From a virus: DNA of 44,596 nucleotides. The notes under the pieces were generated by a model. That model was not told where the DNA came from and searched no databases. It worked only from the letters and a program-made list of their open reading frames with translations. A program made the position numbers and the translations under genes. Below are positions 4,976-5,071 of this stretch, in pieces (positions within the stretch are counted from its first letter, which is position 1; each line of letters starts with the position of its first letter). The DNA lies in IMG/VR virus record IMGVR_UViG_3300045303_000094, positions 1 through 44,596 of that record. One strand, written 5' to 3'.

Positions 4976-5071
4976 AGCATTGGTAGCTCGCTACATTCTG
5001 GTGTTACGCAAGGGGTTCTCACTGACCCTAATAGGGTGTAGAGGTAGGAGGTTCGATTCCTCCCCCTGCTA
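4966..5071 (+). tRNA. tRNA with 41-nt anticodon loop (Gln CTG-like)
   Basis: Clear tRNA parts: acceptor CGCAGGG/CCCTGCT (6 of 7 pairs; C1-T72 mismatch), U8 A9, D-arm GAGC-ATTGGTA-GCTC, anticodon stem CTACA (4991-4995)/TGTAG (5037-5041), variable AGGTA, T-arm GGAGG-TTCGATT-CCTCC with a canonical T-loop, discriminator A. The anticodon loop, however, spans 4996-5036: 41 nt rather than 7. It begins TTCTGG, like the loop of tRNA-Gln(CUG), and carries about 34 extra nt after position 37, containing a small ACCCT/AGGGT hairpin. No CCA is encoded. The insert is far too short for a group I intron. Confidence 0.6.

Follow-up and report, generated by a model that had tools for sequence, protein, structure and literature searches.

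The window, meaning the whole 44,596-base stretch of DNA analysed here, is an entire IMG/VR virus record of an uncultivated phage and carries a tRNA gene with an anticodon loop that is 34 nt overlong (Table 1). The existence of this gene is confirmed. For the fate of its insert, we cautiously favour, at less than even confidence, the reading that the gene specifies a retained, non-decoding tRNA-like RNA, over a tRNA restored by removal of a mini-intron and over a gene in decay.

Twenty of the 21 stem pairs are Watson–Crick (acceptor 6/7, D 4/4, anticodon 5/5, T 5/5), none is G–U, and the sole open pair is 1–72 (C1×U72). This upholds an earlier note on this DNA, which had described a tRNA with all helices intact except for the first pair, a perfect CTACA/TGTAG anticodon stem and a 41-nt loop. 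In a cmscan search, the gene matches RF00005 with 46.8 bits (gathering threshold 29; E = 7.5e-9 in 651 bases) and is the only RF00005 tRNA match within the window record. ARAGORN misses the gene when run without introns and calls it tRNA-Gln(CTG) with a 34-nt intron when run with them. Because the intron mode, used here with a relaxed score threshold, also returns unconvincing tRNAs, the RF00005 score is the better support. The strength of the gene as a tRNA lies in this model score and not in the fold of the whole gene, for which z is −1.74 and 14/200 shuffled sequences fold equally well.

Table 1. Features of the interrupted tRNA gene and its surroundings (positions in the window)
Feature	Position	Strand	Remarks
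tRNA-like gene, ARAGORN call tRNA-Ile(GAT)	4724-4801	+	D and T loops off-model
57-codon open frame	4802-4975	+	between the two tRNA-like genes; stop codon within tRNA 5' end
tRNA-derived gene with expanded anticodon arm	4966-5071	+	RF00005 46.8 bits; ARAGORN intron mode; cloverleaf is the lowest-energy fold
Acceptor 5' strand CGCAGGG	4966-4972	+	C1 open; 2-7 pair with 5064-5069
D arm GAGC-ATTGGTA-GCTC	4975-4989	+	A11-U24, initiator-like
Anticodon stem 5' strand CTACA	4991-4995	+	
Expanded anticodon loop, 41 nt	4996-5036	+	contains the 34-nt insert, which may start anywhere from 5000 to 5003
Direct repeat GGTGT, copy 1	5000-5004	+	copy 2 at 5035-5039
Inner hairpin GGGGTT-CTCACT-GACCCT	5012-5029	+	within the insert, above the extended stem
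Anticodon stem 3' strand TGTAG	5037-5041	+	
T arm GGAGG-TTCGATT-CCTCC	5047-5063	+	
Acceptor 3' strand CCCTGCT and discriminator A	5064-5071	+	CCA not encoded
12-bp perfect hairpin	5074-5101	+	immediately 3' of the tRNA
19-bp inverted repeat, terminator-like	5129-5174	+	A tract on the 5' side, T-rich tail; missed by the terminator scan

As encoded, the loop is 41 nt long, so it is not the 7-nt U33 loop of a functional adaptor, and an RNA that keeps it could not decode. Excision of 34 nt leaves a 7-nt loop, TTCTGGG or TTCTGGT, with U33 and G37, while excision of one GGTGT repeat unit leaves a loop of 6 nt. The direct repeat at the insert boundaries, for which a search had been proposed, is real. 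The insert had also been placed after position 37; a 37/38 site is possible, but the insertion point is not fixed, because GG occurs at both ends and sites at loop nucleotides 35 to 38 all fit.

The body of the tRNA is of a different character from its loop. Initiator tRNAs lack a Watson–Crick pair at 1–72, have a purine 11–pyrimidine 24 pair, and carry three G–C pairs at 29–31/39–41 together with the anticodon CAU. The window gene has the first two of these traits (C1×U72 and A11–U24) and is in this respect initiator-like, while its CTACA/TGTAG stem has neither the G–C triplet nor CAU beside it. A11–U24 and the open 1–72 position recur in the phage tRNA-Met(CAU) genes of L008, L024 and L026, and L024 also has acceptor pairs 2–7 identical to those of the window gene. 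The resemblance to tRNA-Gln(CUG) noted earlier is thus present in the loop and in the ARAGORN call, but not in the initiator-like body or the discriminator A, and a glutamine identity would rest solely on the anticodon-loop letters. An initiator-like body with A73 presumably makes a poor glutamine tRNA under the identity rules, which speaks against a spliced, decoding product.

In the lowest-energy fold the cloverleaf is kept and TTCTG (4996–5000) pairs with TAGGG (5032–5036), which adds five pairs and gives an anticodon stem of 10 bp, with the inner hairpin above it. Three of the five added pairs are G–U, namely the two beside the stem and the last one. The earlier note had held that its reading would be refuted if a single fold lacking the long loop proved better. 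This is half the case: the version with the extended stem is better, and the cloverleaf survives in it. When the loop was shuffled (n = 2000), a stem extension of at least 5 bp arose in 1.1% of cases, whereas 32% of the shuffled loops folded to an energy as low and 37% retained all stems. The stem extension is notable and the total fold energy is not. Together with a tRNA model match that is intact despite the insert, the extension argues for retention; the G–U content of the added pairs and the 32% of equally stable shuffles argue against it, as do U33 and purine 37, which are what a decoding loop would have.

If the insert is retained, the acceptor, D and T arms of the RNA would fold as an initiator-type tRNA, with the anticodon arm rebuilt into a stem of 10 bp that ends in a small hairpin. 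From established tRNA biology, such an RNA would be expected to mature like a tRNA, through RNase P, 3' trimming and CCA addition. Unable to decode, it may act as a tRNA mimic, either diverting, as a decoy, host defences that cut tRNAs or proteins that bind them, or working as a small regulatory RNA. The nuclease-resistant anticodon loop that the earlier note offered as one reading would, at 41 nt, be unable to decode as well.

The alternative that the 34 nt are cut out as a mini-intron and the halves sealed by a host or phage RNA ligase, restoring a 7-nt loop with the anticodon CUG, is one that we regard as doubtful. In its favour, a loop of exactly 7 nt with U33 and G37 remains once 34 nt are taken out, and ARAGORN places such an intron. 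However, U33 and the anticodon take part in pairing in the best fold, and no bulge-helix-bulge is found at any of six boundary choices, with at most 3/4 pairs in the central helix. The proposal of a novel mini-intron made in the earlier note stands as far as a short insert that is not a group I intron is concerned, and lacks a bulge-helix-bulge, an RNA ligase in the record and a relative of the insert. An Rfam scan of the insert region gave no intron match, and at 34 nt the insert is far too short for a group I ribozyme, of which the catalytic core comprises about 200 nt or more. In bacterial tRNA genes, group I introns likewise interrupt the anticodon arm, and to our knowledge the known bacterial tRNA introns are all self-splicing elements of this type. 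Folds of the insert show no acceptor or T arm of its own, as a nested tRNA would have.

The archaeal and eukaryotic nuclear tRNA introns processed by EndA/TSEN resemble the window insert in being short insertions in the loop, in a site that includes 37/38 and in pairing between anticodon and insert, but they have a bulge-helix-bulge and the window insert does not. An archaeal virus with an ordinary tRNA intron at 37/38 would account for the possible site and for the base pairing of anticodon and insert in the lowest-energy structure; we nevertheless consider it very improbable. The window record encodes an Amidase_2 match and a lysis protein with transglycosylase and peptidase domains, and its terminase, portal and capsid proteins match phages of bacteria. 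These lysis genes and phage matches point to a bacterial host and therefore make the archaeal reading, which also lacks its bulge-helix-bulge, unlikely. A DnaB-like helicase fragment lies at the right end of the record (44000–44575), which suggests that the record is incomplete.

The third reading, to which we assign a rather low probability, is that microhomology at GGTGT recently led to the uptake of 34–35 nt by a normal phage tRNA gene, turning it into a pseudogene. The GGTGT copies at both insert ends agree with this, as does the neighbouring tRNA-Ile(GAT), which lacks standard D and T loops (T loop AGCATGA, no GG in the D loop) and has no RF00005 match at E ≤ 10, even though it still folds as a cloverleaf (fold z −2.8). 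The 57-codon frame between the two genes gave nothing in Pfam and PHROG searches. Relatives of the virus are few: a DNA match to window positions 4700–5200 was absent from 50,697 phage records, and the exonuclease, terminase and portal of the window led to no viral relatives. The major capsid protein led to three distant kin contigs (52–55% identity), in which the exonuclease adjoining the window tRNA is unmatched. These kin carry ordinary tRNA genes for Thr, Gln and Leu and no inserted tRNA, which also fits recent decay, although none of the three records is as long as the window and they may be fragmentary. Against decay stand the 20/21 Watson–Crick pairs without any G–U, the finding that the insert was not copied from sequence nearby, and the RF00005 score, which falls inside the range recorded for inserted tRNAs in other phages (37.5–60.2 bits). 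The class as a whole also speaks against simple decay, one of the readings offered in the earlier note, as short inserts in it are common, often under selection and conserved with compensation; for the window itself, decay has the GGTGT repeat, the odd neighbour and the ordinary tRNAs of the kin on its side.

Interrupted tRNA genes of this general type are found in many other phages. A first pattern, demanding a tRNA with 21–51 extra nt between the D and T arms, returned 35 viral stretches from IMG/VR, and a second pattern at least 120 further viral stretches. A strict cloverleaf filter over both sets leaves at least 21 tRNA genes in 19 contigs in addition to the window, with loops of 24–89 nt, and none in reversed and complement-only controls. 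Among the 35 stretches of the first pattern, three matched tRNAs clear this filter (L002, L017 and L035), and many further matches carry another kind of insert. Phage tRNA genes with short anticodon-arm inserts are many and of at least three kinds. The pattern search also gave 98 stretches in 84,980 genomes; when these and 22 viral stretches were passed through the strict filter, only L235 remained, which is a genome contig containing N letters and probably an artefact of joining in assembly. Two joined-exon candidates, tRNA genes with stem inserts of about 50 nt, occur on the cellular contig L249, where the inserts may belong to a prophage, and one occurs on the cellular contig L256.

In the stem-insert kind, represented by 19 genes, the insert measures 39–51 nt, is located in most cases between nucleotides 28 and 30, and usually follows CG. 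Once joined, the halves of these genes give a perfect 5-bp stem, a 7-nt U33 loop and a sensible anticodon, an outcome obtained in 26/3800 shuffles, which lends support to splicing of short inserts. All 17 aligned genes (alignment A2, which leaves out L069 and L133) have a hairpin with C[AT]GCAA after it, although the conservation of these letters is partly by selection, as the filter demanded GC[AG]A. Rfam reports long tRNAs of about 37.5–54 bits at the stem-insert loci, and no other families. Carriers include L042, L054, L086, L100, L102, L121, L126, L128, L136, L140, L144 and L156, among others; the viral contig L126 also has a permuted tmRNA match (4623–4908). The cultured Aeromonas phages Aeh1, Ah1, avDM12-TAAL, AsFcp_4, PX29, phiAS5 and phiWae14 (L160–L166) each have three consecutive inserted tRNAs, two of which contain the hairpin-plus-GCAA element, with paired changes in the stems. 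Selection on the RNA is strongly suggested for this kind. Annotation of these genes is patchy: Aeh1 has a 122-nt tRNA-Val and PX29 a two-piece tRNA-Leu, and in 4/7 of the Aeromonas phages no tRNA is annotated in the stretch examined. A genome paper gives up to 24 potential tRNA genes, with three pseudogenes listed for Aeh1, and reports no group I introns (2006; PMC1524935). An involvement of Ro60 and Y RNAs was considered and rejected, as the protein near the Aeh1 tRNAs, annotated as RNA-binding, matches DUF7788, DUF2828 and VWA_2 and not TROVE. The window gene resembles the stem-insert genes as a phage tRNA gene with a short insert in the anticodon arm, but has neither their insertion site and length nor their hairpin with C[AT]GCAA, and a joined-exon search, which looked for an interruption of the 5' stem strand whose removal restores 5 bp and a 7-nt U33 loop, gave nothing for the window.

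In the nested kind the anticodon loop of a complete tRNA encloses a second one, likewise complete (L053:4972–5121 and L128:2123–2270), and reduced elements occur in L043, L055, L071, L072 and L125. As judged by eye, excision of the inner tRNA leaves a 7-nt loop in both L053 and L128, which again favours splicing. Cuts by RNase P and RNase Z leave a 3'-OH and a 5'-phosphate that a T4 Rnl1-type ligase can seal; release of the inner tRNA by these two enzymes followed by sealing by such a phage ligase may be envisaged for the nested genes. As in L053 and L128, the insert of the window gene sits in the anticodon loop and the tRNA around it is otherwise perfect, but this insert is not itself a tRNA. 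No sequence relative of the window insert was found, and it fits none of the element types found in other phages, which counts against its being a spliced mini-intron. That phages of bacteria carry hidden short tRNA inserts removed by an undescribed machinery, which for nested tRNAs would be the route just given, with the insert of the window as a further, separate member, is rather improbable in our estimate.

If such inserts are spliced, a sealing enzyme would be needed, and RNA ligases above the family cut-off are present in 16/25 records with inserted tRNAs compared to 7/25 without (Fisher one-sided p 0.011), in agreement with the splicing reading. These counts derive from 78 contigs (30 cases, 18 ambiguous, 30 controls), from which the ambiguous ones and then the five smallest per class were dropped; the control L027 may itself carry an inserted tRNA, and earlier counts on 24 hand-picked records without controls are excluded from the evidence for an association. 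Within size classes the contrast weakens (3/6 vs 0/10 up to 82 kb, 5/9 vs 4/11 from 82 to 200 kb, 8/10 vs 3/4 above) and is therefore partly one of genome size. In the window record none of the three RNA ligase families PF09511, PF09414 and PF01139 is found, which favours retention over splicing, with the reservation that the record is possibly a fragment. An overview of jumbo phages ascribes phage RNA ligases to the repair of cleaved tRNA (PMC7824862).

The nearest plan to that of the window RNA, a likeness that favours retention, is found in a separate family, here called L007-type after one of its loci, which combines an initiator-like body, an open acceptor end, an extended anticodon stem and an insert in the loop. 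Fifteen stretches (L007, L010, L017, L019, L030, L032, L036 and L295–L302) contain the invariant TACGATCGTGAAAAG, which holds the palindrome ACGATCGT; an initiator-like tRNA body could be located in 14 of them and 11 were aligned (alignment A3, omitting L032, equal to L007; L298, equal to L297; L302, equal to L300; and L296, with a different D arm). Some members have a further 30-nt module, and one neighbouring gene resembles QueC of a Flavobacterium phage. In the alignment 94.9% of 275 cells are paired and 11/25 pairs have changed on both sides, whereas sliding the structure by one column gives 56.0 and 57.8% of cells paired. Judged by this covariation, L007-type RNAs are shown to be under selection. 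Their acceptor end is poorly paired (1–72 open in 7/11, 2–71 in 5/11), and their anticodon stem is extended by 4–5 bp in the four members measured, compared to 5 bp in the window. Comparable extensions are lacking in six inserted tRNAs outside this family (0 bp in five, 2 bp in L070b), which further supports retention in the window gene. Position 33 is C in 10/11 of the aligned L007-type RNAs, and for this reason a simple excision within the loop would not restore a standard decoding loop; these RNAs probably do not act as normal decoders at any stage, and their insert seems to be kept. The family and the window also have the D stem GAGC/GCTC in common, a likeness that is partly by construction, as several of the loci were found with a pattern demanding D-arm letters. 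However, the likeness is one of plan only: the window has a U at position 33, TACGATCGTGAAAAG is absent from 4996–5036, and the acceptors and inserts otherwise differ.

Altered anticodon loops are also known from phage tRNAs that evade anticodon nucleases, a likeness to the window gene, and the main text of that work describes these as loop mutations without using the words "insertion" or "intron" (PMC10264068). Introns are likewise unmentioned in the main text of PMC13015707, and according to a 2014 review all phage introns seen until then were in protein genes (PMC3984707). Among the open-access papers searched, which included few preprints, we found no account of phage tRNA genes with inserts that are short or nested.

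As ARAGORN did with the gene in the window, tRNA finders run without an intron mode overlook such genes. If short inserts of this type are spliced, they would represent a protein-dependent route of tRNA splicing in bacteria, and phage RNA ligases would gain a job besides repair. Otherwise, they would mark out a class of RNAs that mimic tRNAs and have the anticodon arm rebuilt. Both options are testable in the related inserted genes of cultured Aeromonas phages, such as Aeh1.
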